From Spirodela intermedia (taxonomy: Eukaryota; Streptophyta; Magnoliopsida; Alismatales; Araceae): a DNA stretch of 61,391 nt. The DNA lies in NCBI GenBank assembly GCA_902729315.2, contig CACVBZ020000007.1, positions 1 through 61,391 of the forward strand, written 5' to 3'. Shown in pieces: positions 34,831-61,391 of the stretch. A program made the translations under genes and the position numbers. The notes beneath the pieces were generated by a model. It worked only from the letters and a program-made list of their open reading frames with translations. It was not told where the DNA came from and searched no databases. Each line of letters opens with the position of its first letter. The first letter of the stretch is position 1.

Positions 34831-35019
34831 AAATTTGATATCTCCACACAAAACTTGCAACTTTTTTTTTTAGGCTGTGGCTAATAATATCATTTTTTCA
34901 TCATTTTCTATCATTTTCTGCTACATGTAATTCTCAAATTAACTACTCACGCAAAAATGTTCGAGGGATACATAACTGATTTTCTTGAAATAAGTAATCT
35001 TTAAGAATGTGAAATCTTC

Positions 35020-36190
35020 TAGAGGATTTGCCTTGTTTGAACAAATATCATATTTCGACAAGATCTTTATCTCCTGCATAGAGCTGTGGCAGATGTTCAA
35101 AACCATTAACTTCTCTTCTCATTGTAATCAGAAGTATTGATTTTTGGCTCAATGCATCTGCCATTTTATTTGATTTTCCTGATTTGTAATTTATCACAAA
35201 ATAAAACTTTTTAATAAATGAAATCTATCTCACATGCATTCCATTGACAGTGATCTAACTGTTGACTGATTTCAAAACTTGATGGTCAGTAAATGAAGTA
35301 GTGTTCTTAAGTATGCAATGATCTAACTACAGCATATATATCTCACATGCATTCCATTGTAGTCCACTTTCTTCTGGGTTATATTAATTTCTCACTATAA
35401 AAAGCGATTAGACGACCTTCTTGGGATAATACAGCTTCAATTCTAGTAATTGAGGCATCACATTCTAATATAAATAATTGATCAAAATTTGGCAGTACTA
35501 GTATAGGGGTAGAACTTAACTTTCTTTAATTAGAATAAAACATCTATCTCTTGCATCTGTCCACTGAAAGTTTCCCTCTTTGGTCCATTCAGTGATCAGA
35601 GCCATAATTGAACTAAACTTTGGAATATATCTTGTATAAAAGGATGCTAAACTATGAAAACTACAAACGTCATGTATATTCTTTGAAATTGATCAATCTT
35701 TAATAGTTTCAACCTTTTCTTCATCCATTGTGATGCCATCTGCAGTTACAATGTATTCCAGAAAAACTAAACTTGAAGTAAGAAATTTACATTTCTTTAA
35801 GTTGATGGATAACTTATTTTGTTGTAAAATAGTCAATACAGATCTCAAGTGATGATGATGTTCTTCCTCTGTGTTACTGTATATCAAAATATCGTCAAAA
35901 TAGAAAACAATAAATTTTCAAATGAAAGGCTTCAGTACCTGATTCATCATTCGCAAAAAGATACTCGAAGCAAAAGATAAGCCAATGACATAACCAACTA
36001 TTCATATAATCTTGCTTTTGTCTTAAAAGTGGTCTTCCATTCATCACCTGCCTGAATTTTAATTTGATGATACCCCACTTTTAAGATCAATTTTTTCAAG
36101 CATATCATTAAGTCTGGAAATTGAAATCTATATTTCACTGTGATTTTATTAATCACTCGACTATCTACACACATTCATTAGGTTTCATTC
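35020..36190 (-). pseudogene. Ty3/gypsy reverse transcriptase and RNase H remnant
   Basis: RT evidence on the minus strand: the active-site stretch VFYFDDILIYSNTEEEH (about 35860-35910), followed by NLKKCKFLTSSLVFL and TADGITMDEEKVETIKD (35693-35800). The CVDS/INKITV region lies at about 36090-36180. RNase H starts near 35490 with NFDQLFILECDAS and continues LSQEGRLIAFYSEKL, then decays toward 35.0 kb. The aspartates of the YxDD box are preserved but the frame is broken in many places, so this is a fossil. It lies between the integrase and protease remnants in normal gypsy order. Confidence 0.85.
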
Positions 36191-36200
36191 TTTTTAAGAA

Positions 36201-36734
36201 CTAATAATGAGGTAAGTTTGGCAAACTTGCTTCGGGAAACAAATTTATATGATATTGTACATCCAGGAGAGGAGGAAGATTTATAAGGGAATCTTGTGTG
36301 ATAGAAAACTCATTTATCATATTCTGTGCTGCCTCATGTATAACACCAAAATCATGCAATGAAACATTCTCTTTTTCAATCATCATAAATATTTCGAAAT
36401 TTTCTTTCAAAGTATTAAAAAGTCCAGGTGATCAAATCATCATAACTTGCCTCTTCTTTTTTTAACTGTGTTGAAAACCTCATTTTTTTTTATTGGGCAT
36501 AAAAAAAACATAATATTCTTTGCCCAGGTGATCTCTACCCAGGTGAGTTGCATCTAAATCATATTGCCATGGTAAACCAAAAATTAGATGACAAGCATCG
36601 ATCTGAACAACATCACTATAAATTTCATCGAAATAAACTTTTCTCATTGAGAACTTAACTAAATGGGTCTCTGTAACTCTTGTTTCATAATCCTTCTTTG
36701 TCCACCCAATTAACCAAAAATTCACATTAATCAA
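36201..36734 (-). pseudogene. Ty3/gypsy protease and protease-RT linker remnant
   Basis: The minus frame 36480-36734 reads as the end of a gypsy protease domain: KVYFDEIYSDVV, DACHLIFGLPWQYDLDATH. The frame 36201-36410 is the linker before RT, with the typical YHINLFPEASLPNLP. A frameshift or stop separates the two. The high-coordinate end of the protease frame runs across position 36708, where the tandem array starts, so the first 27 bases or so are shared with the array unit. Confidence 0.75.
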
Positions 36735-36780
36735 CTAAAAACTATTTTTCACAATTTAACATAAATATGTCTATTTATCA

Positions 36781-36990
36781 TGAGTTAATACTAAAACTAT
36801 GTTGTTCATTTTTTTTCTTGCCTCAGAATCTTTTTTCACTGAAAAATACTACTGGTCTGACCTTCTTGTGACCAACTATGGCCAACTAATGCCAACTATG
36901 GCCTCATCACATTCCACTTCAAATAGTTTATCAAAATTTAGTCCGGCCAGAATAAGAGCAGAACATAATTTCTCTTTTATCATGAATTGT
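36781..36990 (-). pseudogene. RNase H N-terminal fragment A in the unit
   Basis: The minus strand reads KEKLCSALILAGLNFDKLF then EVECDEA, matching the start of gypsy RNase H (normally ...FDKLFEVECDAS...). Disrupted SQEG and SEARKK phrases follow in shifted frames. The fragment stops shortly before the unit join at 36708. Equivalent fragments occur in units 2-6 at the same offset. The plus-strand open frame over the same bases is an antisense shadow. Confidence 0.75.
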
Positions 36991-37059
36991 GATTGGTCAT
37001 GAAATAACATTTCATCAAGTTAATATATAATTCATTCTATTGTAACACTTTGAATATAT

Positions 37060-37240
37060 ATATATATATGAGACGTTTCGTATGTTCAGTACTGTAAATA
37101 AGAATGTCATTAAAATAATTGACAATAAATCTACCAATAAAAGGTTTCAGAATTTGATTCATCACTCTCATAAAGGCATGACCAACCATTCATAAAAACC
37201 TGCCTTAATTTTAAAGGCCGTCTTCTATTCATCTCCCTGA
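37060..37240 (-). pseudogene. Reverse transcriptase active-site fragment A in the unit
   Basis: The minus strand reads [16 protein letters not shown] then [10 protein letters not shown], an RT palm segment in which the first aspartate position of the usual YFDD is Asn (YFND). Before it, shifted frames give [17 protein letters not shown], the preceding RT segment, with the usual FGLTNAP stretch missing. It directly follows the gag zinc knuckle, so protease and the RT N-terminus have been deleted here. Confidence 0.75.
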
Positions 37241-38299
37241 TCTTCTCTACACCTTCAGTTTCACCTTCATCTATGGCCTCTCTGAAATTCACAGCTCTAC
37301 GTTTTGGACAAGCATTTGATTTGTCACTTCTTCATTAAATCCGTAACAGTTTCGAACAGAGTTAGATACATATGGATCCCTACGAGAAGAATTTCACCCA
37401 CTAGGAATAGATCCACTTGGTCTTGGTGCAGCTGAGGTTGCTGATCTTTCATTACTAGTAGCAAATGAAATGTGTGCTGGTCTTGACCTGTCTGGCTGAA
37501 GTGTTGACACGTCAGTAAACTTTCGAGTTCTAGATTTACTTTTCTCCAGTATAATTTTAGCACGTTCTGATGTCATAACAACATCATTTCACTTGAAGAA
37601 TGATTGTAAAACAAACATTTCTTCAATATTCGATTGAAGTTCACTTTTAAATCTAGAGATCACATAAGATTTAGATTAAGTCAAATTGACGCTTAAATAA
37701 AGTTTATAGTCATACAACTTTGATATTAGTGATATAAAGCCTGTTCATAGTCAGAAGGAGGAAATCTAGATTTGAATAATTTCTTCATCTTATCCGAACT
37801 TTGAACTTGATCTTTTCTTCATCTTGTATGGGTGGATTGTAGCTGATCCCACCAGGCAGAGGCTCCACCTTTCAGTTTTATAGGCAGCTAAATTCACGTG
37901 TTTGTCATCACAAATCTTCATGCATTCCAAAAATCTCTCATTTTTCGAAATCCAATTAAGAAATTCTTCTATTTTAAAAAGTCTATTAAGGCTAGGTGAA
38001 TCAATTTACATTCGAAATTCTCTGCAATCATCATAATCAGATCTACTTTTTGAGCTTTCCGTTATTGTTTGATAAGTTTTTATGTGAGAGGTTACATAAA
38101 TCATTTTATTTTTTACCAGTTTGACCATGAAATTGACATTCCATTGCGGACATTCGTGCTAACATTTGCTTCAAAGTGTCATTCAAATTTTAAATTTTTT
38201 GATCCATATGAATCTTGAAATCAGCAAACTCTTATTTCAAATCAGGGTATACCTCAGAACTTTCATTGTCACTGATGTGAATCCCTTTATCTCGTGACA
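37240..38299 (-). pseudogene. Broken gag of the unit
   Basis: On the minus strand a start-like ATG at 38299 opens MSRDKGIHISDNESSEVYPD and then meets stops. Around 37800-37900 disrupted frames recall the gypsy gag capsid (QDEEKIKFK, LLLTMNRL). Near 37394-37576 a Ser/Pro-rich basic segment (SERAKIILEKSKSRT, then PDRSRPAHISF) precedes a damaged CCHC knuckle at about 37300-37345. After the knuckle comes NACPKRRAVNFREAIDEGE. It is a fossil with several stops. The short open frames reported here in each copy are out-of-frame pieces of it. Confidence 0.7.
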
Positions 38300-38331
38300 T
38301 CTTTTAAATCTACATCTGGAACACTAACCTT

Positions 38332-38343
38332 GCTCTCATACCA
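38332..38343 (-). other. Primer binding site, tRNA-iMet type
   Basis: The minus strand reads TGGTATGAGAGC, one mismatch from the TGGTATCAGAGC complementary to initiator tRNA-Met that most plant LTR elements use. It lies five bases from the CA end of the LTR block at 38349, which is the expected spacing. Present in every unit, at 42110, 45888, 49664, 53442, 57220 and 59198 (start, approximate to a base or two). Confidence 0.75.
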
Positions 38344-38348
38344 CTTGA

Positions 38349-38811
38349 TGCAGTGAAACTTGAGGAGGGAGTAGCTTGAACGAGTTGTAATCAACTTTAA
38401 TATTGTGGGGGTCAAAGACACGTCTTTGAATCCTCGAAAAACGTGCTCCAATGGTTATCCTTTTGCTCTGAATCCACAAGGTGAAGAGGACAGATCCCTT
38501 GACTCCACAAGGAGGTGATACTTAATCCGCAGAGTGAAGAACAAGTTCCTAGGGTCCCCAGCGGTGCTGGAGTCCATTAGTAGAATGAGAGAAGTTCAAG
38601 AAAAGAAAACTTACAAAATTATACTGTAAAAAGGTAATGTGACTCTAGAGGGTGGCTTTAAATAGGCTATAGAGTCTCTTTTTGGGCGCCAAGATTTGAA
38701 TTTCAAATAAAATATAAATCTGAAATCAGCATTTGGCTGAAAACATTTTGCTGAAATTTTAAATTTAGACGAAATTTTAATTTCAAACGAAAATATAAGT
38801 AATTTCCTTGC
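38349..38811 (-). repeat. LTR block of the unit (truncated at its 5' side)
   Basis: This block begins (plus strand) TGCAGTGAAACTTGAGG next to the primer binding site and is related along about 450 bases to the intact LTR at 33346-33958. It loses that similarity near 38790-38815, so the U3 beginning of the LTR is missing. Because each unit has one such block between internal segments, the array has the form LTR-internal-LTR-internal. Confidence 0.65.
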
Positions 38812-39150
38812 CACGGTGTGTACGTCTGCCTAATATCATGAGACAATCATTCATGTCAACAACATCACAGAATGGATGAGTCTAATAATTGAAATATTAT
38901 CTGAAAATTTGATTAGACATGTATCTGAAACTTTAGTTTCTGTTTTCTTCTTGATCCAAATAATTCAAAATGGATGAGGGTGTGGTCTTCTTGTCTGCAC
39001 ATCTAATTTGTTTAACCCTCACAGAATTCACAGTGCTACTGTGTGAGTCTAATATTACTACTGTCACTATCAATGATTATATCACATACTTCAGAATTCA
39101 CAGTGCACCTTGTGTTGAAAATGTTATGACTCTGTGAGTCTTTTTCTCAT
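38812..39150. other. Unassigned part of the unit
   Basis: About 340 bases between the LTR block and RNase H fragment B. It contains a duplicated phrase CAGAATTCACAGTGC (about 39021 and 39092). I could not match it convincingly to the integrase remnant at 34-34.9 kb. It may be badly decayed integrase or foreign sequence. Confidence 0.4.
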
Positions 39151-39990
39151 TTTAGTAAATACATCAATCTGCTGCATAGAGTTATGTCATATGTGCAAAA
39201 CACTAGCTTCTCCTCTCATTGTAATCAGAAACGTTGCTTTCAGCTCAGTGCATTAGCCACCTTCTTTGATTTTCCTGATTTGCTCTTTATCATAACAGTA
39301 AACTTTTCAATAAATGAAATTCATCTAACATGCATTATGTTGATAGTGGTCTGACTGTTGACTTATTTCAAAGCTTGATGGTCAGTAAATAAAATAAATT
39401 ATACATTGAATCAAGTAGTGTTCCTAAGTATGTAATGATCTGACCACAGCATAAAATTCTAACTCATATGCAGTCCAGTAAAAGGTGCTGTACAACCTGT
39501 TAATACTTGGTGAGATAAAATTATGACTTCTGTTAATTTCTCACTATAAAAAGGTACTGTACAACCTTGGTGAGATAATACTGCTCTAATTTCAGTAATT
39601 AAGACATTTCATTCTATGTGTTGCATCTGTCAATTAAAAGTTTCCTCTTTTCATGCACTCAGTGATGGGAGCCATAATTGAACTGAAATTCTGGATAAAT
39701 CTTATATAAAAGGATGCTATGCCATGAGAACTATGAAGATCATGTATATAATTTAGAATTAGCTAGTCTTTAATAACTTTAATCCTTTTTTCATCCACTT
39801 TGATGCCATCTGCACTTATGGTATATTTCAGAAAAACGAAACTTTAACGACACATCATGTCAAGCATATCATCAACTGTTGGAATTGAAAATCAATATTT
39901 CACCGTGATTTTATTAATTTCTCGACTATCTACACACATTCGTCAAGTTCCATCTTTTTTTGGAACCAATAACAAAGATACTGAGCATGG
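39151..39990 (-). pseudogene. RT and RNase H fragment B in the unit
   Basis: The minus strand carries an RT N-terminal piece ([21 protein letters not shown]; 39846-39990). It then jumps directly to the RT C-terminal piece (SADGIKVDEKRIKVIKD; about 39755-39845), so the active-site middle is deleted. RNase H follows (ITEIRAVLSHQG, PFYSEK; about 39530-39610). Near 39480-39580 a segment with the phrase TGTACAACCT is locally duplicated. This fragment overlaps in domain content with fragment A, so the two come from different copies or from a rearranged copy. Confidence 0.75.
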
Positions 39991-40265
39991 ACTCATACAA
40001 ATAAATCCTTTCCCTAAAAGTCTATAAATCCAACTTGTTCTTATAAAACCTTATTTTTCTTAAGGCTCATTCTGCAATGAGGTAAAATTGACAAACTTGG
40101 TCCAAGAATAAAGTCTATATGATGTCCTTGAGCGGAAGAAGATTTACAGAGGAATCTTGTGTGATTTATAGAAGATTTTCTGTACTGCCTAGGGTGTAAC
40201 ACTAGAATCATGTAAAGAGAAATCCTCTTTTTGAACTAGCATAAGTACTACATAATTTTCTTTAA
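39991..40265 (-). pseudogene. Protease-RT linker fragment in the unit
   Basis: The minus strand around 40080-40260 is recognisably the same region as the linker remnant at 36201-36410 (phrases corresponding to KENF-I-M--EKE and the segment before RT) but is diverged and frameshifted. Confidence 0.6.
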
Positions 40266-40292
40266 CCGTGCTAAAAAAAAAGCTTATTTTCT

Positions 40293-40460
40293 CGCAATGG
40301 GTCCCTTTCTCGCATGTACGACCACTTCTTCCCTAAAAGCCGGCTAGCCGCTGGTGAAATGGAAGGGGAGTGACGCACACGTGCCCTCCGACTGCAGTTC
40401 GAACCCGTTTGCGGCCCGGCTGGTCGGTGGGTCTCCCCCTTTTCTATATTTTAATTTTAA
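40293..40460 (+). mobile_element. SINE-like Pol III module in unit 1
   Basis: A GC-rich island in AT-rich DNA holds a match to the Pol III A box (TGGTGAAATGG, 40352-40362) and the B box (GTTCGAACC, 40397-40405). Their starts are 45 bases apart, almost the spacing in tRNA genes. The T-arm does not pair, so it is not a tRNA gene. The island ends in a T-rich tail. TTATTTTCT just before and TTATTTTTCT after could be a target duplication. I could not assign it to a named SINE family. Confidence 0.5.
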
Positions 40461-40483
40461 TTTATTTTTCTATAAACTCACAT

Positions 40484-43400
40484 AATTAACCAAAAATTCA
40501 CATTAATCAACTAAAAACTATTTTTCACAATTTAACATAAATATGTCTATTTATCATGAGTTAATACTAAAACTATGTTGTTCATTTTTTTTCTTGCCTC
40601 AGAATCTTTTTTCACTGAAAAATACTACTGGTCTGACCTTCTTGTGACCAACTATGGCCAACTAATGCCAACTATGGCCTCATCACATTCCACTTCAAAT
40701 AGTTTATCAAAATTTAGTCCGGCCAGAATAAGAGCAGAACATAATTTCTCTTTTATCATGAATTGTGATTGGTCATGAAATAACATTTCATCAAGTTAAT
40801 ATATAATTCATTCTATTGTAACACTTTGAATATATATATATATATATGAGACGTTTCGTATGTTCAGTACTGTAAATAAGAATGTCATTAAAATAATTGA
40901 CAATAAATCTACCAATAAAAGGTTTCAGAATTTGATTCATCACTCTCATAAAGGCATGACCAACCATTCATAAAAACCTGCCTTAATTTTAAAGGCCGTC
41001 TTCTATTCATCTCCCTGATCTTCTCTACACCTTCAGTTTCACCTTCATCTATGGCCTCTCTGAAATTCACAGCTCTACGTTTTGGACAAGCATTTGATTT
41101 GTCACTTCTTCATTAAATCCGTAACAGTTTCGAACAGAGTTAGATACATATGGATCCCTACGAGAAGAATTTCACCCACTAGGAATAGATCCACTTGGTC
41201 TTGGTGCAGCTGAGGTTGCTGATCTTTCATTACTAGTAGCAAATGAAATGTGTGCTGGTCTTGACCTGTCTGGCTGAAGTGTTGACACGTCAGTAAACTT
41301 TCGAGTTCTAGATTTACTTTTCTCCAGTATAATTTTAGCACGTTCTGATGTCATAACAACATCATTTCACTTGAAGAATGATTGTAAAACAAACATTTCT
41401 TCAATATTCGATTGAAGTTCACTTTTAAATCTAGAGATCACATAAGATTTAGATTAAGTCAAATTGACGCTTAAATAAAGTTTATAGTCATACAACTTTG
41501 ATATTAGTGATATAAAGCCTGTTCATAGTCAGAAGGAGGAAATCTAGATTTGAATAATTTCTTCATCTTATCCGAACTTTGAACTTGATCTTTTCTTCAT
41601 CTTGTATGGGTGGATTGTAGCTGATCCCACCAGGCAGAGGCTCCACCTTTCAGTTTTATAGGCAGCTAAATTCACGTGTTTGTCATCACAAATCTTCATG
41701 CATTCCAAAAATCTCTCATTTTTCGAAATCCAATTAAGAAATTCTTCTATTTTAAAAAGTCTATTAAGGCTAGGTGAATCAATTTACATTCGAAATTCTC
41801 TGCAATCATCATAATCAGATCTACTTTTTGAGCTTTCCGTTATTGTTTGATAAGTTTTTATGTGAGAGGTTACATAAATCATTTTATTTTTTACCAGTTT
41901 GACCATGAAATTGACATTCCATTGCGGACATTCGTGCTAACATTTGCTTCAAAGTGTCATTCAAATTTTAAATTTTTTGATCCATATGAATCTTGAAATC
42001 AGCAAACTCTTATTTCAAATCAGGGTATACCTCAGAACTTTCATTGTCACTGATGTGAATCCCTTTATCTCGTGACATCTTTTAAATCTACATCTGGAAC
42101 ACTAACCTTGCTCTCATACCACTTGATGCAGTGAAACTTGAGGAGGGAGTAGCTTGAACGAGTTGTAATCAACTTTAATATTGTGGGGGTCAAAGACACG
42201 TCTTTGAATCCTCGAAAAACGTGCTCCAATGGTTATCCTTTTGCTCTGAATCCACAAGGTGAAGAGGACAGATCCCTTGACTCCACAAGGAGGTGATACT
42301 TAATCCGCAGAGTGAAGAACAAGTTCCTAGGGTCCCCAGCGGTGCTGGAGTCCATTAGTAGAATGAGAGAAGTTCAAGAAAAGAAAACTTACAAAATTAT
42401 ACTGTAAAAAGGTAATGTGACTCTAGAGGGTGGCTTTAAATAGGCTATAGAGTCTCTTTTTGGGCGCCAAGATTTGAATTTCAAATAAAATATAAATCTG
42501 AAATCAGCATTTGGCTGAAAACATTTTGCTGAAATTTTAAATTTAGACGAAATTTTAATTTCAAACGAAAATATAAGTAATTTCCTTGCCACGGTGTGTA
42601 CGTCTGCCTAATATCATGAGACAATCATTCATGTCAACAACATCACAGAATGGATGAGTCTAATAATTGAAATATTATCTGAAAATTTGATTAGACATGT
42701 ATCTGAAACTTTAGTTTCTGTTTTCTTCTTGATCCAAATAATTCAAAATGGATGAGGGTGTGGTCTTCTTGTCTGCACATCTAATTTGTTTAACCCTCAC
42801 AGAATTCACAGTGCTACTGTGTGAGTCTAATATTACTACTGTCACTATCAATGATTATATCACATACTTCAGAATTCACAGTGCACCTTGTGTTGAAAAT
42901 GTTATGACTCTGTGAGTCTTTTTCTCATTTTAGTAAATACATCAATCTGCTGCATAGAGTTATGTCATATGTGCAAAACACTAGCTTCTCCTCTCATTGT
43001 AATCAGAAACGTTGCTTTCAGCTCAGTGCATTAGCCACCTTCTTTGATTTTCCTGATTTGCTCTTTATCATAACAGTAAACTTTTCAATAAATGAAATTC
43101 ATCTAACATGCATTATGTTGATAGTGGTCTGACTGTTGACTTATTTCAAAGCTTGATGGTCAGTAAATAAAATAAATTATACATTGAATCAAGTAGTGTT
43201 CCTAAGTATGTAATGATCTGACCACAGCATAAAATTCTAACTCATATGCAGTCCAGTAAAAGGTGCTGTACAACCTGTTAATACTTGGTGAGATAAAATT
43301 ATGACTTCTGTTAATTTCTCACTATAAAAAGGTACTGTACAACCTTGGTGAGATAATACTGCTCTAATTTCAGTAATTAAGACATTTCATTCTATGTGTT

Positions 43401-44261
43401 GCATCTGTCAATTAAAAGTTTCCTCTTTTCATGCACTCAGTGATGGGAGCCATAATTGAACTGAAATTCTGGATAAATCTTATATAAAAGGATGCTATGC
43501 CATGAGAACTATGAAGATCATGTATATAATTTAGAATTAGCTAGTCTTTAATAACTTTAATCCTTTTTTCATCCACTTTGATGCCATCTGCACTTATGGT
43601 ATATTTCAGAAAAACGAAACTTTAACGACACATCATGTCAAGCATATCATCAACTGTTGGAATTGAAAATCAATATTTCACCGTGATTTTATTAATTTCT
43701 CGACTATCTACACACATTCGTCAAGTTCCATCTTTTTTTGGAACCAATAACAAAGATACTGAGCATGGACTCATACAAATAAATCCTTTCCCTAAAAGTC
43801 TATAAATCCAACTTGTTCTTATAAAACCTTATTTTTCTTAAGGCTCATTCTGCAATGAGGTAAAATTGACAAACTTGGTCCAAGAATAAAGTCTATATGA
43901 TGTCCTTGAGCGGAAGAAGATTTACAGAGGAATCTTGTGTGATTTATAGAAGATTTTCTGTACTGCCTAGGGTGTAACACTAGAATCATGTAAAGAGAAA
44001 TCCTCTTTTTGAACTAGCATAAGTACTACATAATTTTCTTTAACCGTGCTAAAAAAAAAGCTTATTTTCTCGCAATGGGTCCCTTTCTCGCATGTACGAC
44101 CACTTCTTCCCTAAAAGCCGGCTAGCCGCTGGTGAAATGGAAGGGGAGTGACGCACACGTGCCCTCCGACTGCAGTTCGAACCCGTTTGCGGCCCGGCTG
44201 GTCGGTGGGTCTCCCCCTTTTCTATATTTTAATTTTAATTTATTTTTCTATAAACTCACAT
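40484..44261 (-). repeat. Array unit 2 (3778 bp)
   Basis: Full copy with (AT)9. Same internal order as unit 1. Its low-coordinate end abuts the SINE tail of unit 1. Confidence 0.95.
44071..44238 (+). mobile_element. SINE-like module in unit 2
   Basis: Copy of the module at 40293-40460; A box at 44130. Confidence 0.5.
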
Positions 44262-47200
44262 AATTAACCAAAAATTCACATTAATCAACTAAAAACTATT
44301 TTTCACAATTTAACATAAATATGTCTATTTATCATGAGTTAATACTAAAACTATGTTGTTCATTTTTTTTCTTGCCTCAGAATCTTTTTTCACTGAAAAA
44401 TACTACTGGTCTGACCTTCTTGTGACCAACTATGGCCAACTAATGCCAACTATGGCCTCATCACATTCCACTTCAAATAGTTTATCAAAATTTAGTCCGG
44501 CCAGAATAAGAGCAGAACATAATTTCTCTTTTATCATGAATTGTGATTGGTCATGAAATAACATTTCATCAAGTTAATATATAATTCATTCTATTGTAAC
44601 ACTTTGAATATATATATATATATGAGACGTTTCGTATGTTCAGTACTGTAAATAAGAATGTCATTAAAATAATTGACAATAAATCTACCAATAAAAGGTT
44701 TCAGAATTTGATTCATCACTCTCATAAAGGCATGACCAACCATTCATAAAAACCTGCCTTAATTTTAAAGGCCGTCTTCTATTCATCTCCCTGATCTTCT
44801 CTACACCTTCAGTTTCACCTTCATCTATGGCCTCTCTGAAATTCACAGCTCTACGTTTTGGACAAGCATTTGATTTGTCACTTCTTCATTAAATCCGTAA
44901 CAGTTTCGAACAGAGTTAGATACATATGGATCCCTACGAGAAGAATTTCACCCACTAGGAATAGATCCACTTGGTCTTGGTGCAGCTGAGGTTGCTGATC
45001 TTTCATTACTAGTAGCAAATGAAATGTGTGCTGGTCTTGACCTGTCTGGCTGAAGTGTTGACACGTCAGTAAACTTTCGAGTTCTAGATTTACTTTTCTC
45101 CAGTATAATTTTAGCACGTTCTGATGTCATAACAACATCATTTCACTTGAAGAATGATTGTAAAACAAACATTTCTTCAATATTCGATTGAAGTTCACTT
45201 TTAAATCTAGAGATCACATAAGATTTAGATTAAGTCAAATTGACGCTTAAATAAAGTTTATAGTCATACAACTTTGATATTAGTGATATAAAGCCTGTTC
45301 ATAGTCAGAAGGAGGAAATCTAGATTTGAATAATTTCTTCATCTTATCCGAACTTTGAACTTGATCTTTTCTTCATCTTGTATGGGTGGATTGTAGCTGA
45401 TCCCACCAGGCAGAGGCTCCACCTTTCAGTTTTATAGGCAGCTAAATTCACGTGTTTGTCATCACAAATCTTCATGCATTCCAAAAATCTCTCATTTTTC
45501 GAAATCCAATTAAGAAATTCTTCTATTTTAAAAAGTCTATTAAGGCTAGGTGAATCAATTTACATTCGAAATTCTCTGCAATCATCATAATCAGATCTAC
45601 TTTTTGAGCTTTCCGTTATTGTTTGATAAGTTTTTATGTGAGAGGTTACATAAATCATTTTATTTTTTACCAGTTTGACCATGAAATTGACATTCCATTG
45701 CGGACATTCGTGCTAACATTTGCTTCAAAGTGTCATTCAAATTTTAAATTTTTTGATCCATATGAATCTTGAAATCAGCAAACTCTTATTTCAAATCAGG
45801 GTATACCTCAGAACTTTCATTGTCACTGATGTGAATCCCTTTATCTCGTGACATCTTTTAAATCTACATCTGGAACACTAACCTTGCTCTCATACCACTT
45901 GATGCAGTGAAACTTGAGGAGGGAGTAGCTTGAACGAGTTGTAATCAACTTTAATATTGTGGGGGTCAAAGACACGTCTTTGAATCCTCGAAAAACGTGC
46001 TCCAATGGTTATCCTTTTGCTCTGAATCCACAAGGTGAAGAGGACAGATCCCTTGACTCCACAAGGAGGTGATACTTAATCCGCAGAGTGAAGAACAAGT
46101 TCCTAGGGTCCCCAGCGGTGCTGGAGTCCATTAGTAGAATGAGAGAAGTTCAAGAAAAGAAAACTTACAAAATTATACTGTAAAAAGGTAATGTGACTCT
46201 AGAGGGTGGCTTTAAATAGGCTATAGAGTCTCTTTTTGGGCGCCAAGATTTGAATTTCAAATAAAATATAAATCTGAAATCAGCATTTGGCTGAAAACAT
46301 TTTGCTGAAATTTTAAATTTAGACGAAATTTTAATTTCAAACGAAAATATAAGTAATTTCCTTGCCACGGTGTGTACGTCTGCCTAATATCATGAGACAA
46401 TCATTCATGTCAACAACATCACAGAATGGATGAGTCTAATAATTGAAATATTATCTGAAAATTTGATTAGACATGTATCTGAAACTTTAGTTTCTGTTTT
46501 CTTCTTGATCCAAATAATTCAAAATGGATGAGGGTGTGGTCTTCTTGTCTGCACATCTAATTTGTTTAACCCTCACAGAATTCACAGTGCTACTGTGTGA
46601 GTCTAATATTACTACTGTCACTATCAATGATTATATCACATACTTCAGAATTCACAGTGCACCTTGTGTTGAAAATGTTATGACTCTGTGAGTCTTTTTC
46701 TCATTTTAGTAAATACATCAATCTGCTGCATAGAGTTATGTCATATGTGCAAAACACTAGCTTCTCCTCTCATTGTAATCAGAAACGTTGCTTTCAGCTC
46801 AGTGCATTAGCCACCTTCTTTGATTTTCCTGATTTGCTCTTTATCATAACAGTAAACTTTTCAATAAATGAAATTCATCTAACATGCATTATGTTGATAG
46901 TGGTCTGACTGTTGACTTATTTCAAAGCTTGATGGTCAGTAAATAAAATAAATTATACATTGAATCAAGTAGTGTTCCTAAGTATGTAATGATCTGACCA
47001 CAGCATAAAATTCTAACTCATATGCAGTCCAGTAAAAGGTGCTGTACAACCTGTTAATACTTGGTGAGATAAAATTATGACTTCTGTTAATTTCTCACTA
47101 TAAAAAGGTACTGTACAACCTTGGTGAGATAATACTGCTCTAATTTCAGTAATTAAGACATTTCATTCTATGTGTTGCATCTGTCAATTAAAAGTTTCCT

Positions 47201-48037
47201 CTTTTCATGCACTCAGTGATGGGAGCCATAATTGAACTGAAATTCTGGATAAATCTTATATAAAAGGATGCTATGCCATGAGAACTATGAAGATCATGTA
47301 TATAATTTAGAATTAGCTAGTCTTTAATAACTTTAATCCTTTTTTCATCCACTTTGATGCCATCTGCACTTATGGTATATTTCAGAAAAACGAAACTTTA
47401 ACGACACATCATGTCAAGCATATCATCAACTGTTGGAATTGAAAATCAATATTTCACCGTGATTTTATTAATTTCTCGACTATCTACACACATTCGTCAA
47501 GTTCCATCTTTTTTTGGAACCAATAACAAAGATACTGAGCATGGACTCATACAAATAAATCCTTTCCCTAAAAGTCTATAAATCCAACTTGTTCTTATAA
47601 AACCTTATTTTTCTTAAGGCTCATTCTGCAATGAGGTAAAATTGACAAACTTGGTCCAAGAATAAAGTCTATATGATGTCCTTGAGCGGAAGAAGATTTA
47701 CAGAGGAATCTTGTGTGATTTATAGAAGATTTTCTGTACTGCCTAGGGTGTAACACTAGAATCATGTAAAGAGAAATCCTCTTTTTGAACTAGCATAAGT
47801 ACTACATAATTTTCTTTAACCGTGCTAAAAAAAAAGCTTATTTTCTCGCAATGGGTCCCTTTCTCGCATGTACGACCACTTCTTCCCTAAAAGCCGGCTA
47901 GCCGCTGGTGAAATGGAAGGGGAGTGACGCACACGTGCCCTCCGACTGCAGTTCGAACCCGTTTGCGGCCCGGCTGGTCGGTGGGTCTCCCCCTTTTCTA
48001 TATTTTAATTTTAATTTATTTTTCTATAAACTCACAT
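44262..48037 (-). repeat. Array unit 3 (3776 bp)
   Basis: Full copy with (AT)8. Confidence 0.95.
47847..48014 (+). mobile_element. SINE-like module in unit 3
   Basis: Copy of the module at 40293-40460; A box at 47906. Confidence 0.5.
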
Positions 48038-51000: not shown

Positions 51001-51815
51001 GAGCCATAATTGAACTGAAATTCTGGATAAATCTTATATAAAAGGATGCTATGCCATGAGAACTATGAAGATCATGTATATAATTTAGAATTAGCTAGTC
51101 TTTAATAACTTTAATCCTTTTTTCATCCACTTTGATGCCATCTGCACTTATGGTATATTTCAGAAAAACGAAACTTTAACGACACATCATGTCAAGCATA
51201 TCATCAACTGTTGGAATTGAAAATCAATATTTCACCGTGATTTTATTAATTTCTCGACTATCTACACACATTCGTCAAGTTCCATCTTTTTTTGGAACCA
51301 ATAACAAAGATACTGAGCATGGACTCATACAAATAAATCCTTTCCCTAAAAGTCTATAAATCCAACTTGTTCTTATAAAACCTTATTTTTCTTAAGGCTC
51401 ATTCTGCAATGAGGTAAAATTGACAAACTTGGTCCAAGAATAAAGTCTATATGATGTCCTTGAGCGGAAGAAGATTTACAGAGGAATCTTGTGTGATTTA
51501 TAGAAGATTTTCTGTACTGCCTAGGGTGTAACACTAGAATCATGTAAAGAGAAATCCTCTTTTTGAACTAGCATAAGTACTACATAATTTTCTTTAACCG
51601 TGCTAAAAAAAAAGCTTATTTTCTCGCAATGGGTCCCTTTCTCGCATGTACGACCACTTCTTCCCTAAAAGCCGGCTAGCCGCTGGTGAAATGGAAGGGG
51701 AGTGACGCACACGTGCCCTCCGACTGCAGTTCGAACCCGTTTGCGGCCCGGCTGGTCGGTGGGTCTCCCCCTTTTCTATATTTTAATTTTAATTTATTTT
51801 TCTATAAACTCACAT
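48038..51815 (-). repeat. Array unit 4 (3778 bp)
   Basis: Full copy with (AT)9. One private base is visible at 49480 (A, where the other units have G). Confidence 0.95.
51625..51792 (+). mobile_element. SINE-like module in unit 4
   Basis: Copy of the module at 40293-40460; A box at 51684. Confidence 0.5.
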
Positions 51816-54800
51816 AATTAACCAAAAATTCACATTAATCAACTAAAAACTATTTTTCACAATTTAACATAAATATGTCTATTTATCATGAGTTAATACT
51901 AAAACTATGTTGTTCATTTTTTTTCTTGCCTCAGAATCTTTTTTCACTGAAAAATACTACTGGTCTGACCTTCTTGTGACCAACTATGGCCAACTAATGC
52001 CAACTATGGCCTCATCACATTCCACTTCAAATAGTTTATCAAAATTTAGTCCGGCCAGAATAAGAGCAGAACATAATTTCTCTTTTATCATGAATTGTGA
52101 TTGGTCATGAAATAACATTTCATCAAGTTAATATATAATTCATTCTATTGTAACACTTTGAATATATATATATATATATGAGACGTTTCGTATGTTCAGT
52201 ACTGTAAATAAGAATGTCATTAAAATAATTGACAATAAATCTACCAATAAAAGGTTTCAGAATTTGATTCATCACTCTCATAAAGGCATGACCAACCATT
52301 CATAAAAACCTGCCTTAATTTTAAAGGCCGTCTTCTATTCATCTCCCTGATCTTCTCTACACCTTCAGTTTCACCTTCATCTATGGCCTCTCTGAAATTC
52401 ACAGCTCTACGTTTTGGACAAGCATTTGATTTGTCACTTCTTCATTAAATCCGTAACAGTTTCGAACAGAGTTAGATACATATGGATCCCTACGAGAAGA
52501 ATTTCACCCACTAGGAATAGATCCACTTGGTCTTGGTGCAGCTGAGGTTGCTGATCTTTCATTACTAGTAGCAAATGAAATGTGTGCTGGTCTTGACCTG
52601 TCTGGCTGAAGTGTTGACACGTCAGTAAACTTTCGAGTTCTAGATTTACTTTTCTCCAGTATAATTTTAGCACGTTCTGATGTCATAACAACATCATTTC
52701 ACTTGAAGAATGATTGTAAAACAAACATTTCTTCAATATTCGATTGAAGTTCACTTTTAAATCTAGAGATCACATAAGATTTAGATTAAGTCAAATTGAC
52801 GCTTAAATAAAGTTTATAGTCATACAACTTTGATATTAGTGATATAAAGCCTGTTCATAGTCAGAAGGAGGAAATCTAGATTTGAATAATTTCTTCATCT
52901 TATCCGAACTTTGAACTTGATCTTTTCTTCATCTTGTATGGGTGGATTGTAGCTGATCCCACCAGGCAGAGGCTCCACCTTTCAGTTTTATAGGCAGCTA
53001 AATTCACGTGTTTGTCATCACAAATCTTCATGCATTCCAAAAATCTCTCATTTTTCGAAATCCAATTAAGAAATTCTTCTATTTTAAAAAGTCTATTAAG
53101 GCTAGGTGAATCAATTTACATTCGAAATTCTCTGCAATCATCATAATCAGATCTACTTTTTGAGCTTTCCGTTATTGTTTGATAAGTTTTTATGTGAGAG
53201 GTTACATAAATCATTTTATTTTTTACCAGTTTGACCATGAAATTGACATTCCATTGCGGACATTCGTGCTAACATTTGCTTCAAAGTGTCATTCAAATTT
53301 TAAATTTTTTGATCCATATGAATCTTGAAATCAGCAAACTCTTATTTCAAATCAGGGTATACCTCAGAACTTTCATTGTCACTGATGTGAATCCCTTTAT
53401 CTCGTGACATCTTTTAAATCTACATCTGGAACACTAACCTTGCTCTCATACCACTTGATGCAGTGAAACTTGAGGAGGGAGTAGCTTGAACGAGTTGTAA
53501 TCAACTTTAATATTGTGGGGGTCAAAGACACGTCTTTGAATCCTCGAAAAACGTGCTCCAATGGTTATCCTTTTGCTCTGAATCCACAAGGTGAAGAGGA
53601 CAGATCCCTTGACTCCACAAGGAGGTGATACTTAATCCGCAGAGTGAAGAACAAGTTCCTAGGGTCCCCAGCGGTGCTGGAGTCCATTAGTAGAATGAGA
53701 GAAGTTCAAGAAAAGAAAACTTACAAAATTATACTGTAAAAAGGTAATGTGACTCTAGAGGGTGGCTTTAAATAGGCTATAGAGTCTCTTTTTGGGCGCC
53801 AAGATTTGAATTTCAAATAAAATATAAATCTGAAATCAGCATTTGGCTGAAAACATTTTGCTGAAATTTTAAATTTAGACGAAATTTTAATTTCAAACGA
53901 AAATATAAGTAATTTCCTTGCCACGGTGTGTACGTCTGCCTAATATCATGAGACAATCATTCATGTCAACAACATCACAGAATGGATGAGTCTAATAATT
54001 GAAATATTATCTGAAAATTTGATTAGACATGTATCTGAAACTTTAGTTTCTGTTTTCTTCTTGATCCAAATAATTCAAAATGGATGAGGGTGTGGTCTTC
54101 TTGTCTGCACATCTAATTTGTTTAACCCTCACAGAATTCACAGTGCTACTGTGTGAGTCTAATATTACTACTGTCACTATCAATGATTATATCACATACT
54201 TCAGAATTCACAGTGCACCTTGTGTTGAAAATGTTATGACTCTGTGAGTCTTTTTCTCATTTTAGTAAATACATCAATCTGCTGCATAGAGTTATGTCAT
54301 ATGTGCAAAACACTAGCTTCTCCTCTCATTGTAATCAGAAACGTTGCTTTCAGCTCAGTGCATTAGCCACCTTCTTTGATTTTCCTGATTTGCTCTTTAT
54401 CATAACAGTAAACTTTTCAATAAATGAAATTCATCTAACATGCATTATGTTGATAGTGGTCTGACTGTTGACTTATTTCAAAGCTTGATGGTCAGTAAAT
54501 AAAATAAATTATACATTGAATCAAGTAGTGTTCCTAAGTATGTAATGATCTGACCACAGCATAAAATTCTAACTCATATGCAGTCCAGTAAAAGGTGCTG
54601 TACAACCTGTTAATACTTGGTGAGATAAAATTATGACTTCTGTTAATTTCTCACTATAAAAAGGTACTGTACAACCTTGGTGAGATAATACTGCTCTAAT
54701 TTCAGTAATTAAGACATTTCATTCTATGTGTTGCATCTGTCAATTAAAAGTTTCCTCTTTTCATGCACTCAGTGATGGGAGCCATAATTGAACTGAAATT

Positions 54801-55593
54801 CTGGATAAATCTTATATAAAAGGATGCTATGCCATGAGAACTATGAAGATCATGTATATAATTTAGAATTAGCTAGTCTTTAATAACTTTAATCCTTTTT
54901 TCATCCACTTTGATGCCATCTGCACTTATGGTATATTTCAGAAAAACGAAACTTTAACGACACATCATGTCAAGCATATCATCAACTGTTGGAATTGAAA
55001 ATCAATATTTCACCGTGATTTTATTAATTTCTCGACTATCTACACACATTCGTCAAGTTCCATCTTTTTTTGGAACCAATAACAAAGATACTGAGCATGG
55101 ACTCATACAAATAAATCCTTTCCCTAAAAGTCTATAAATCCAACTTGTTCTTATAAAACCTTATTTTTCTTAAGGCTCATTCTGCAATGAGGTAAAATTG
55201 ACAAACTTGGTCCAAGAATAAAGTCTATATGATGTCCTTGAGCGGAAGAAGATTTACAGAGGAATCTTGTGTGATTTATAGAAGATTTTCTGTACTGCCT
55301 AGGGTGTAACACTAGAATCATGTAAAGAGAAATCCTCTTTTTGAACTAGCATAAGTACTACATAATTTTCTTTAACCGTGCTAAAAAAAAAGCTTATTTT
55401 CTCGCAATGGGTCCCTTTCTCGCATGTACGACCACTTCTTCCCTAAAAGCCGGCTAGCCGCTGGTGAAATGGAAGGGGAGTGACGCACACGTGCCCTCCG
55501 ACTGCAGTTCGAACCCGTTTGCGGCCCGGCTGGTCGGTGGGTCTCCCCCTTTTCTATATTTTAATTTTAATTTATTTTTCTATAAACTCACAT
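51816..55593 (-). repeat. Array unit 5 (3778 bp)
   Basis: Full copy with (AT)9. Confidence 0.95.
55403..55570 (+). mobile_element. SINE-like module in unit 5
   Basis: Copy of the module at 40293-40460; A box at 55462. Confidence 0.5.
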
Positions 55594-58121
55594 AATTAAC
55601 CAAAAATTCACATTAATCAACTAAAAACTATTTTTCACAATTTAACATAAATATGTCTATTTATCATGAGTTAATACTAAAACTATGTTGTTCATTTTTT
55701 TTCTTGCCTCAGAATCTTTTTTCACTGAAAAATACTACTGGTCTGACCTTCTTGTGACCAACTATGGCCAACTAATGCCAACTATGGCCTCATCACATTC
55801 CACTTCAAATAGTTTATCAAAATTTAGTCCGGCCAGAATAAGAGCAGAACATAATTTCTCTTTTATCATGAATTGTGATTGGTCATGAAATAACATTTCA
55901 TCAAGTTAATATATAATTCATTCTATTGTAACACTTTGAATATATATATATATATGAGACGTTTCGTATGTTCAGTACTGTAAATAAGAATGTCATTAAA
56001 ATAATTGACAATAAATCTACCAATAAAAGGTTTCAGAATTTGATTCATCACTCTCATAAAGGCATGACCAACCATTCATAAAAACCTGCCTTAATTTTAA
56101 AGGCCGTCTTCTATTCATCTCCCTGATCTTCTCTACACCTTCAGTTTCACCTTCATCTATGGCCTCTCTGAAATTCACAGCTCTACGTTTTGGACAAGCA
56201 TTTGATTTGTCACTTCTTCATTAAATCCGTAACAGTTTCGAACAGAGTTAGATACATATGGATCCCTACGAGAAGAATTTCACCCACTAGGAATAGATCC
56301 ACTTGGTCTTGGTGCAGCTGAGGTTGCTGATCTTTCATTACTAGTAGCAAATGAAATGTGTGCTGGTCTTGACCTGTCTGGCTGAAGTGTTGACACGTCA
56401 GTAAACTTTCGAGTTCTAGATTTACTTTTCTCCAGTATAATTTTAGCACGTTCTGATGTCATAACAACATCATTTCACTTGAAGAATGATTGTAAAACAA
56501 ACATTTCTTCAATATTCGATTGAAGTTCACTTTTAAATCTAGAGATCACATAAGATTTAGATTAAGTCAAATTGATGCTTAAATAAAGTTTATAGTCATA
56601 CAACTTTGATATTAGTGATATAAAGCCTGTTCATAGTCAGAAGGAGGAAATCTAGATTTGAATAATTTCTTCATCTTATCCGAACTTTGAACTTGATCTT
56701 TTCTTCATCTTGTATGGGTGGATTGTAGCTGATCCCACCAGGCAGAGGCTCCACCTTTCAGTTTTATAGGCAGCTAAATTCACGTGTTTGTCATCACAAA
56801 TCTTCATGCATTCCAAAAATCTCTCATTTTTCGAAATCCAATTAAGAAATTCTTCTATTTTAAAAAGTCTATTAAGGCTAGGTGAATCAATTTACATTCG
56901 AAATTCTCTGCAATCATCATAATCAGATCTACTTTTTGAGCTTTCCGTTATTGTTTGATAAGTTTTTATGTGAGAGGTTACATAAATCATTTTATTTTTT
57001 ACCAGTTTGACCATGAAATTGACATTCCATTGCGGACATTCGTGCTAACATTTGCTTCAAAGTGTCATTCAAATTTTAAATTTTTTGATCCATATGAATC
57101 TTGAAATCAGCAAACTCTTATTTCAAATCAGGGTATACCTCAGAACTTTCATTGTCACTGATGTGAATCCCTTTATCTCGTGACATCTTTTAAATCTACA
57201 TCTGGAACACTAACCTTGCTCTCATACCACTTGATGCAGTGAAACTTGAGGAGGGAGTAGCTTGAACGAGTTGTAATCAACTTTAATATTGTGGGGGTCA
57301 AAGACACGTCTTTGAATCCTCGAAAAACGTGCTCCAATGGTTATCCTTTTGCTCTGAATCCACAAGGTGAAGAGGACAGATCCCTTGACTCCACAAGGAG
57401 GTGATACTTAATCCGCAGAGTGAAGAACAAGTTCCTAGGGTCCCCAGCGGTGCTGGAGTCCATTAGTAGAATGAGAGAAGTTCAAGAAAAGAAAACTTAC
57501 AAAATTATACTGTAAAAAGGTAATGTGACTCTAGAGGGTGGCTTTAAATAGGCTATAGAGTCTCTTTTTGGGCGCCAAGATTTGAATTTCAAATAAAATA
57601 TAAATCTGAAATCAGCATTTGGCTGAAAACATTTTGCTGAAATTTTAAATTTAGACGAAATTTTAATTTCAAACGAAAATATAAGTAATTTCCTTGCCAC
57701 GGTGTGTACGTCTGCCTAATATCATGAGACAATCATTCATGTCAACAACATCACAGAATGGATGAGTCTAATAATTGAAATATTATCTGAAAATTTGATT
57801 AGACATGTATCTGAAACTTTAGTTTCTGTTTTCTTCTTGATCCAAATAATTCAAAATGGATGAGGGTGTGGTCTTCTTGTCTGCACATCTAATTTGTTTA
57901 ACCCTCACAGAATTCACAGTGCTACTGTGTGAGTCTAATATTACTACTGTCACTATCAATGATTATATCACATACTTCAGAATTCACAGTGCACCTTGTG
58001 TTGAAAATGTTATGACTCTGTGAGTCTTTTTCTCATTTTAGTAAATACATCAATCTGCTGCATAGAGTTATGTCATATGTGCAAAACACTAGCTTCTCCT
58101 CTCATTGTAATCAGAAACGTT
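55594..58121 (-). repeat. Array unit 6, truncated
   Basis: It has (AT)8 and a private T at 56576 (others C). It follows the normal unit through the gag, primer binding site and LTR block, and stops inside RNase H fragment B. It lacks RT fragment B and the SINE-like module. Confidence 0.93.
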
Positions 58122-58131
58122 GCTCTACGTT
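58122..58131. other. Deletion junction between units 6 and 7
   Basis: Normal unit sequence ends at ...AAACGTTGCT and resumes at TCATCTATGGCC, removing about 1.8 kb. The bases between make GCTCTACGTT. That string occurs intact 37 bases further on (58159-58168), so the filler looks copied from nearby. Confidence 0.75.
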
Positions 58132-60084
58132 CATCTATGGCCTCTCTGAAATTCACAGCTCTACGTTTTGGACAAGCATTTGATTTGTCACTTCTTCATT
58201 AAATCCGTAACAGTTTCGAACAGAGTTAGATACATATGGATCCCTACGAGAAGAATTTCACCCACTAGGAATAGATCCACTTGGTCTTGGTGCAGCTGAG
58301 GTTGCTGATCTTTCATTACTAGTAGCAAATGAAATGTGTGCTGGTCTTGACCTGTCTGGCTGAAGTGTTGACACGTCAGTAAACTTTCGAGTTCTAGATT
58401 TACTTTTCTCCAGTATAATTTTAGCACGTTCTGATGTCATAACAACATCATTTCACTTGAAGAATGATTGTAAAACAAACATTTCTTCAATATTCGATTG
58501 AAGTTCACTTTTAAATCTAGAGATCACATAAGATTTAGATTAAGTCAAATTGACGCTTAAATAAAGTTTATAGTCATACAACTTTGATATTAGTGATATA
58601 AAGCCTGTTCATAGTCAGAAGGAGGAAATCTAGATTTGAATAATTTCTTCATCTTATCCGAACTTTGAACTTGATCTTTTCTTCATCTTGTATGGGTGGA
58701 TTGTAGCTGATCCCACCAGGCAGAGGCTCCACCTTTCAGTTTTATAGGCAGCTAAATTCACGTGTTTGTCATCACAAATCTTCATGCATTCCAAAAATCT
58801 CTCATTTTTCGAAATCCAATTAAGAAATTCTTCTATTTTAAAAAGTCTATTAAGGCTAGGTGAATCAATTTACATTCGAAATTCTCTGCAATCATCATAA
58901 TCAGATCTACTTTTTGAGCTTTCCGTTATTGTTTGATAAGTTTTTATGTGAGAGGTTACATAAATCATTTTATTTTTTACCAGTTTGACCATGAAATTGA
59001 CATTCCATTGCGGACATTCGTGCTAACATTTGCTTCAAAGTGTCATTCAAATTTTAAATTTTTTGATCCATATGAATCTTGAAATCAGCAAACTCTTATT
59101 TCAAATCAGGGTATACCTCAGAACTTTCATTGTCACTGATGTGAATCCCTTTATCTCGTGACATCTTTTAAATCTACATCTGGAACACTAACCTTGCTCT
59201 CATACCACTTGATGCAGTGAAACTTGAGGAGGGAGTAGCTTGAACGAGTTGTAATCAACTTTAATATTGTGGGGGTCAAAGACACGTCTTTGAATCCTCG
59301 AAAAACGTGCTCCAATGGTTATCCTTTTGCTCTGAATCCACAAGGTGAAGAGGACAGATCCCTTGACTCCACAAGGAGGTGATACTTAATCCGCAGAGTG
59401 AAGAACAAGTTCCTAGGGTCCCCAGCGGTGCTGGAGTCCATTAGTAGAATGAGAGAAGTTCAAGAAAAGAAAACTTACAAAATTATACTGTAAAAAGGTA
59501 ATGTGACTCTAGAGGGTGGCTTTAAATAGGCTATAGAGTCTCTTTTTGGGCGCCAAGATTTGAATTTCAAATAAAATATAAATCTGAAATCAGCATTTGG
59601 CTGAAAACATTTTGCTGAAATTTTAAATTTAGACGAAATTTTAATTTCAAACGAAAATATAAGTAATTTCCTTGCCACGGTGTGTACGTCTGCCTAATAT
59701 CATGAGACAATCATTCATGTCAACAACATCACAGAATGGATGAGTCTAATAATTGAAATATTATCTGAAAATTTGATTAGACATGTATCTGAAACTTTAG
59801 TTTCTGTTTTCTTCTTGATCCAAATAATTCAAAATGGATGAGGGTGTGGTCTTCTTGTCTGCACATCTAATTTGTTTAACCCTCACAGAATTCACAGTGC
59901 TACTGTGTGAGTCTAATATTACTACTGTCACTATCAATGATTATATCACATACTTCAGAATTCACAGTGCACCTTGTGTTGAAAATGTTATGACTCTGTG
60001 AGTCTTTTTCTCATTTTAGTAAATACATCAATCTGCTGCATAGAGTTATGTCATATGTGCAAAACACTAGCTTCTCCTCTCATT

Positions 60085-60790
60085 GTAATCAGAAACATTT
60101 GCTCAGCTCAGTGCATTAGCCACCTTCTTGCAGATTTTTCCTGGTTGCTCTATCATAACAGTAAAACTTTTCAATAAGTAAGGGGAATTCATCTAACATG
60201 CATTTATGTTGGTAAGTGGTCTGACTGTTGGTACATTTCAAAGCTTGATGGTTAAGTAAATAAAAGATAGAATTATACATTGAATCAAGTGAGTGTTTCA
60301 CTAAATTATGTAATGATCTGACCACAGCATAAAATTCTAACTCATATACAGTCCAGTAAAGGTGCTGTACAACCTGGTATTGTACTTAGGTGAGTTAGGT
60401 ATGACTTCTGTTATTTAATTTCTCACTATAAAAGGTACTGCAACACAACTTAACCCGAATTTCGAGATAATACTGTACTCTAATTTCCATTAATTAAGAC
60501 ATTTCATTCTATGTGTTGCATCTGTCGTTAAAAAGTTTCCTCTTTTTCATGCACTCAGTGATAGAATACTGTTGAACTGAAATTCTGGACCAATCTTATA
60601 TATAAAGGATGCTGTATACTTGTGAGAACTATAGAGATCATGTATATAATTTAGAATTAAACAATTCTTTGTACTTTAATCCTTTTTCATCCACACTTTG
60701 ATTATACCATCTGCATGGGTATATTTCAAACGAAACTTTACTGACACATCATGTCAAGCATATAATCAACTGTGCGGAATTGAAAATCAA
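60085..60790. other. Indel-dense patch in unit 7
   Basis: Aligned with any other unit, this 0.7-kb stretch shows many one- to four-base insertions and deletions and scattered changes (for example GTTGGTAAGTGGTCTG against GTTGATAGTGGTCTG). Sequence on both sides is nearly identical to the other units. Confidence 0.8.
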
Positions 60791-61186
60791 TGTTCACCGT
60801 GATTTTATTAATTTCTCGACTATCTACACACATTCGTCAAGTTCCATCTTTTTTTGGAACCAATAACAAAGATACTGAGCATGGACTCATACAAATAAAT
60901 CCTTTCCCTAAAAGTCTATAAATCCAACTTGTTCTTATAAAACATTATTTTTCTTAAGGCTCATTCTGCAATGAGGTAAAATTGACAAACTTGGTCCAAG
61001 AATAAAGTCTATATGATGTCCTTGAGCGGAAGAAGATTTACAGAGGAATCTTGTGTGATTTATAGAAGAGTTTCTGTACTGCCTAGGGTGTAACACTAGA
61101 ATCATGTAAAGAGAAATCCTCTTTTTGAACTAGCATAAGTACTACATAATTTTCTTTAACCGTGCTAAAAAAAAAGCTTATTTTCT

Positions 61187-61354
61187 CGCAATGGGTCCCT
61201 TTCTCGCATGTACGACCACTTCTTCCCTAAAAGCCGGCTAGCCGCTGGTGAAATGGAAGGGGAGTGACGCACACGTGCCCTCCGACTGCAGTTCGACCCC
61301 GTTTGCGGCCCGGCTGGTCGGTGGGTCTCCCCCTTTTCTATATTTTAATTTTAA
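61187..61354 (+). mobile_element. SINE-like module in unit 7
   Basis: Copy of the module at 40293-40460; A box at 61246. The B box reads GTTCGACCC, still within consensus. Confidence 0.5.
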
Positions 61355-61377
61355 TTTATTTTTCTATAAACTCACAT

Positions 61378-61391
61378 AATTAACCAAAAAT
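61378..61391 (-). repeat. First bases of array unit 8
   Basis: AATTAACCAAAAAT, the start of the next unit, runs to the window edge. Confidence 0.85.

Follow-up and report, generated by a model that had tools for sequence, protein, structure and literature searches.

A single-locus tandem array of near-identical 3.78-kb units, derived from decayed retrotransposon sequence, in the assembly of Spirodela intermedia

In the genome assembly of Spirodela intermedia (GCA_902729315.2), we found that contig CACVBZ020000007.1 (C25), which is 61,391 bp long and makes up our entire window, carries at 36,708–61,391 a head-to-tail array of five full units (3,776–3,778 bp each) and two partial ones. Judged by DNA matches to related sequences, the unit is a mosaic of decayed Ty3/gypsy pieces plus a fragment of the long terminal repeat (LTR) of a second family. 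Within the assembly that we searched (136.5 Mb in 32 contigs), the array occupies one locus and does not form a dispersed satellite. The array is probably explained by illegitimate local duplication of a decayed element, followed by unequal recombination or conversion. Positions given without a contig name refer to C25.

The dominant offsets among repeated 24-mers are 3,778 and 3,776 bp, and they start near 36,708. Alignment of the units, all of which lie on the minus strand, places unit 1 at 36,708–40,483 (3,776 bp), unit 2 at 40,484–44,261 (3,778 bp), unit 3 at 44,262–48,037 (3,776 bp), unit 4 at 48,038–51,815 (3,778 bp) and unit 5 at 51,816–55,593 (3,778 bp), followed by partial unit 6 at 55,594–58,124 (2,531 bp). 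Pairs of full units differ by 0–1 substitution and 0–2 gap columns; copies of several kilobases at about 99.9% identity are not a product of chance. Units can be told apart by an AT-dinucleotide step, which runs short, long, short, long, long, short across units 1–6, and by substitutions, one private to unit 4 and one common to unit 6 and the last copy of a second assembled version of the array, on the chromosome-scale contig C5. A single LTR block, accompanied by a stretch that resembles a primer binding site, is present in each unit, giving seven occurrences in all. The 24-mer offsets and the unit alignments therefore bear out a preliminary description of this DNA, which had reported near-identical head-to-tail copies, five full and two partial, each with one LTR block and a primer binding site.

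At 58,124/58,127, the sequence of unit 6 jumps back by about 1,978 bp, with a short filler that resembles sequence slightly downstream; this irregular junction (58,125–58,126, no strand assigned) is either a real rearrangement (template switching) or an assembly join. Partial unit 7 (58,127–61,391, minus strand; 3,265 bp) then reaches the contig end. Within it, four bins spanning 60,100–60,900 have 32, 38, 32 and 19 differing columns per 204–208 (9–19%, counting mismatches and indels relative to the C5 copy), and after 60,900 the sequence is nearly clean up to the contig end. The last 3.3 kb of C25 is unreliable, and the low-quality stretch at 60,100–60,900 resembles unpolished long-read sequence. 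The array had been described as continuing past the edge of the window; it does reach that edge, which is the end of the contig, and continuation is likely but unseen.

We found that the locus is assembled a second time on C5, where C25:1–42,558 matches C5:3,610,747–3,653,320 at 99.94%. The C5 array, at 3,647,472–3,653,320, has 1.55 units, in the form of a 2,073-bp direct repeat (99.9%) that flanks a 1.7-kb spacer, so that the assembled array measures 24.7 kb in C25 and 5.8 kb in C5. Copy number in the assembly was taken from a pattern search with a 36-bp word that lies over the LTR/pol join of the monomer (a first genome-wide DNA search skipped common words, scored 38 of 2,989 candidates and did not list the C25 array). 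With up to two mismatches allowed, the junction word has 8 matches in the assembly, 7 in C25 and 1 in C5, and was not found outside these two contigs. Because all eight matches lie at one locus, the array is single-locus in this assembly. The term satellite used in the preliminary description, if taken to mean a dispersed or high-copy family, is thus not supported, and a genome-wide satellite was rejected as far as the assembly shows. One mark of satellite DNA, an array of near-identical head-to-tail monomers, is present; another, long arrays at high copy number or at several loci, was not found in the assembly, although assemblies may under-represent satellites. According to excerpts of a paper on clone 8410 (PMC7645714), satellite DNA there accounts for 0.17% of reads as compared to 0.06% of the assembly.

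The existence of two versions raises the question of whether the longer one is an artefact, the true locus being the 1.55 units of C5 and C25 being redundant, the product of a hybrid assembler that circled the repeat several times. We consider this rather unlikely. In its favor, the listed differences between the C25 and C5 flanks (36,707 bp) are confined to a 140-bp GA/G-rich patch at 13,798–13,937 (2 indels and 3 substitution columns); this near absence of differences argues against two ordinary diverged alleles, and the contigs may be one haplotype assembled twice. The noisy end of C25 and the irregular junction at 58,124/58,127 also fit such an artefact. In addition, among three other small contigs checked by their first 600 bp, C29 has a single other place, at 99%, on the chromosome contig C9, and C30 and C31 start in repeats. 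Excerpts of the clone 8410 paper, the presumed source of the assembly, give 191.9 Mb before filtering as compared to a genome of about 160 Mb, with duplicated sequence said to be filtered (PMC7645714), although the same excerpts give Nanopore reads of 10–425 kb, some of which are long enough to cross the array. Also contrary to an artefact, the unit differences come in a non-repeating order (the pattern of the AT step and the single substitutions in units 4 and 6), and a tandem repeat is present even in C5. Moreover, near-identical repeats are more often collapsed than expanded during assembly, and the C5 version could itself be the collapse of a longer array. We describe the array as a local repeat that is probably variable in length.

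We assigned the parts of the unit by reference to a fuller relative at C9:7,009,037–7,014,658, which provides the canonical order. The retroelement parts of the unit are on the minus strand. In one unit, the LTR block lies at 45,900–46,342 (443 of about 600 bp, with the start of U3 missing) and is adjoined at 45,880–45,897 by the primer-binding-site-like stretch, which may resemble the initiator-tRNA-Met type. A gag-region remnant is found at 45,000–45,899 by collinearity with C9, and pol-derived fragments, in non-canonical order and with one segment missing, are found at 46,378–47,831 by DNA match to relatives. These are followed at 47,855–48,140 by a fragment of a 1.64-kb LTR family (family D; no strand assigned), recognized by its match to dispersed copies, and at 48,117–48,775 by a second block of pol-derived fragments, again matched to relatives at the DNA level. 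The pol pieces in the spacer match C9 at 62%, 73% and 77%. Across the array, LTRs alternate with internal regions, in which the order of parts is non-canonical.

The protein content of the unit is dead, and the array is non-coding and has no role in transposition. Between 44,262 and 48,040 there are 43 stop-to-stop open reading frames (ORFs) of at least 40 amino acids, the longest of which has 82. We scanned nine ORFs against Pfam, eight in the unit and one in the flanking element. The ORF at 44,591–44,743, in the second pol block one unit earlier, has a weak, sub-threshold match to reverse transcriptase (Pfam E 0.0048), no gag domain of Pfam matches the gag region of the unit at E up to 1, and the remaining matches among the nine ORFs, apart from one in the flanking element, are to unrelated families at E 0.034 to 0.2, which we attribute to chance. 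In the C9 relative, the reverse transcriptase ORF has a clear Pfam match (E 7e-23) and the scanned gag-region ORF has none. The gag assignment and most of the pol assignments are based on collinearity with this relative. Of the dead gag and two broken pol fragments that had been read from the sequence, the pol pieces are borne out by DNA matches in two blocks or more, with the reverse transcriptase match being weak; gag is identified by its collinear position, with no match to a gag domain.

Each unit had also been said to contain a module resembling a short interspersed element (SINE). We found instead that this module corresponds to the end portion of family D. The stretch at 47,855–48,140 matches a dispersed family (of 2,925 candidates, 40 were scored and gave 61 matches, including the copies in the array itself), and comparison of two of its copies (C8:2,640,408–2,642,046 and C13 near 4,244,560–4,246,200) gives a unit of about 1.64 kb with TG...CA ends. 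In these two copies, the target-site duplication is ACGAG on both sides on C13 and CCTCT/CCTCC (4 of 5 positions) on C8. The length of the unit, its ends and the 5-bp target-site duplication mark family D as an LTR, which appears without its element within the stretch that was fetched. The box-B-like word of the unit was present in none of the seven other module copies with letters at that position (eight were compared and one was gapped), ARAGORN (bacterial settings) detected no tRNA in the window, and Rfam gave nothing at E up to 1 for the module copies located in 33,000–48,100. A SINE module was rejected on these grounds. In a separate first look, a stretch beginning with a family D copy gave 63 matches among 40 scored of 3,707 candidates; the family is abundant.

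Family D sequence is also found at both edges of the array. The left edge falls inside a family D fragment, and on C5 the array is followed on its right by another family D copy, which lacks its first 129 bp where eight other aligned copies continue leftward. The idea that a 1.5-kb element had inserted cleanly there was considered and dropped because that family D copy is itself truncated. Broken array edges, both in family D sequence, are as expected for illegitimate joins.

The left border of the array adjoins the left part of a decayed Ty3/gypsy element (element A; 33,342–36,711, minus strand), which includes a full-length 3′ LTR with TG...CA ends at 33,342–33,959. On C5, element A occupies 3,644,106–3,647,475 and is collinear with C9:7,009,037–7,012,655 at 77–81%. 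Its ORF at 33,993–34,433 has a Tf2-1-like SH3 domain (Pfam E 3e-9). Next to element A there is about 510 bp in which the tail of a different family's LTR and two further pol pieces (64–68% to C9) are found, and beyond this the f-gag-LTR segment of the unit (C5:3,647,985–3,649,551; f denotes the sequence between pol and gag) continues element A collinearly in comparison to C9, at 80%. This collinearity suggests that the array arose in place. It also speaks against an alternative in which an extrachromosomal circle from the locus was copied by a rolling circle and the concatemer reinserted: such an event would fit the non-integer number of units, the different phases at the two edges and the near-perfect identity of the units, but the continuity of the f-gag-LTR segment with the flanking element favors amplification in place, and we regard a reinserted concatemer as improbable.

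To place unit identity in relation to the age of the insertion, we compared the outer LTR of element A with the unit LTR and found that they are about 18% different over 383 aligned columns (Jukes-Cantor 0.21). Relatives on C9, C3 and C8 have LTR pairs whose divergence is in the same range (0.15, 0.12 and 0.19, respectively). Since the units are nearly identical whereas the outer LTR differs by 18%, their sameness postdates the insertion by far and was not acquired with it. The same comparison makes it very doubtful that the array was inserted ready-made as a tandem LTR retrotransposon (LTR-internal-LTR-internal), as has been proposed for loci in rice. The alternation of LTR blocks with internal segments and the gypsy type are compatible with such an insertion; however, the LTR divergence, on which we rejected it, is joined by a scrambled internal order that includes a foreign LTR fragment and, in the C5 version, by a truncated right edge, so that no flanking pair of target-site duplications is visible.

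Beyond the observed anatomy, identities, locus and 1.55-unit version, we infer an order of events, recombination as the amplifier and the real length of the array. A long-dead Ty3/gypsy element, A, would have been broken up and mixed with pieces of its relatives and a fragment of a second family's LTR, and an illegitimate local tandem duplication would then have produced the 3.78-kb unit. Two copies, arranged as in C5 (a 2,073-bp direct repeat and a 1.7-kb spacer), may have served as a substrate for unequal homologous recombination or for gene-conversion repair, and unequal exchange or conversion could then have added, removed and homogenized units to give the five full and two partial units of C25. 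The collinearity in place, the broken edges and the two-copy-like state of C5 support illegitimate duplication followed by unequal exchange or conversion. Likewise, unit identity and mosaic anatomy support the idea in the preliminary description that a chimeric retrotransposon-derived block became a tandem unit whose copies have hardly diverged.

The sameness of the units is most simply read as recent amplification, though an older array may instead have been homogenized, either through conversion or in the assembly process. Several points weigh against the scenario that we favor. The assembler may have copied or homogenized units, and an array of greater age could have been kept identical by gene conversion; near-identity alone is thus no proof of youth. 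A one-step duplication fails to explain why the same 2,073-bp stretch stands at both ends of the C5 version, for which edge deletions or conversion must be assumed. Finally, the differences among units (one AT step and two substitutions) are too few to reconstruct the history of recombination.

With respect to its surroundings, the locus is an intergenic island of repeats and not a block devoid of genes. KH-domain ORFs (27,495–29,324, likely one gene) end at 29,327, 7.4 kb to the left of the array, and an mTERF ORF starts 8.0 kb beyond the right end of the C5 array, at C5:3,661,292. Further to the left, Pfam matches identify MYB domains over two ORFs at 14,230–15,262 and a PPR ORF of 1,312 amino acids at 20,980–24,915 (minus strand), whose protein matches flowering-plant proteins (apart from two entries at 100% and 88%, the best named matches are from Spirodela intermedia, at 90% over 58% of the queried part, and from Wolffia australiana, at 58%). 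These gene-like ORFs leave the suggestion that the array might mark a centromeric or heterochromatic block unsupported.

Pieces of the same LTR family also occur in two other tandem arrays with long monomers. At C14:1,801,809–1,824,885, a 6,014-bp monomer is present in 3.84 copies at 99.97%, with pieces in both orientations, and at C8:3,558,729–3,573,013, about 2.7 copies at 99.2–99.6% have spacings of 5,220 and 5,321 bp, a difference that may be explained by a minisatellite-like stretch with 17-bp steps near 3,562,339–3,562,814. Both arrays lie inside chromosome-scale contigs, and their monomers differ from that of C25. Overall, multi-kilobase near-identical tandem copies were seen in 3 of 9 compared places (C14, C8 and C5) and in none of the other six; the nine were chosen from the first DNA-search matches, C14 and C8 for their regular spacing, and give no estimate of frequency. 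If both the C25 and C5 versions were real and belonged to the same haplotype, the array would be expanding and contracting mitotically in a clonal asexual line, with the seed of a satellite forming here and perhaps also on C14 and C8, which we hold to be a long shot.

The locus may show an early stage in the path from retrotransposon ruin to tandem repeat, present side by side in a 1.55-unit and a longer form, in a presumed host genome whose satellite content is reported as low in the excerpts cited above (PMC7645714). The same excerpts cite the sister species S. polyrhiza as having 8 solo LTRs for every complete element, a ratio that points to frequent LTR recombination. The locus also calls for caution, as a small unplaced contig that is really the second version of a chromosomal locus can pass for a satellite. 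In the open-access literature on Spirodela arrays and long-monomer nested satellites, we found no account of this locus in the titles and abstract openings among the matches listed.

The array can be compared with several known systems. In maize, the tandem units of CRM1TR and CRM4TR consist of an LTR and adjoining Ty3/gypsy sequence, and their model invokes illegitimate deletions, perhaps within nested elements, and then growth by gene conversion, with unequal exchange or rolling circles allowed (Sharma, Wolfgruber and Presting, 2013; PMC3648361). The C25 unit similarly derives from an LTR and the adjoining part of a Ty3/gypsy element, and the mechanism that we propose is close; however, the C25 array is at one locus near genes, its units are nearly identical, its monomer includes a second LTR family, and its element is placed as Ty3/gypsy only. 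In rice, tandem LTR-retrotransposon structures have multi-kilobase internal regions between LTRs, vary in copy number and are mostly gypsy; the 28 clear cases are bounded by an LTR at each end, perfect target-site duplications are found in 10 of them, and degenerate or complex arrays were filtered out (Morales-Diaz et al., 2025; PMC11899658). The C25 array resembles these in that LTRs alternate with multi-kilobase internal regions. In contrast to the rice cases, the LTRs of C25 and C5 are unequal in age and mostly truncated, and the internal order is scrambled; full LTRs of like age at both ends with a target-site duplication were not found in the C5 version. In Solanum bulbocastanum, Sobo has a composite 4.7-kb monomer that derives partly from an LTR retrotransposon, occupies about 360 kb of the pericentromere of chromosome 7 and is termed recently amplified in the title of its paper, as described in PMC8091179 and PMC3648361. 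The C25 monomer is likewise composite and partly derived from an LTR retrotransposon, whereas its array measures 5.8 kb (C5) or 24.7 kb (C25) and lies in an intergenic island. As the preliminary description had noted with reference to Sobo and CRM-derived repeats, a class of multi-kilobase retroelement-derived repeats exists in plants; the monomer that it could not recognize is new as a locus and ordinary as a kind. Taken together, the array belongs with CRM1TR, Sobo and degenerate tandem LTR elements: it is a new locus of a known kind.

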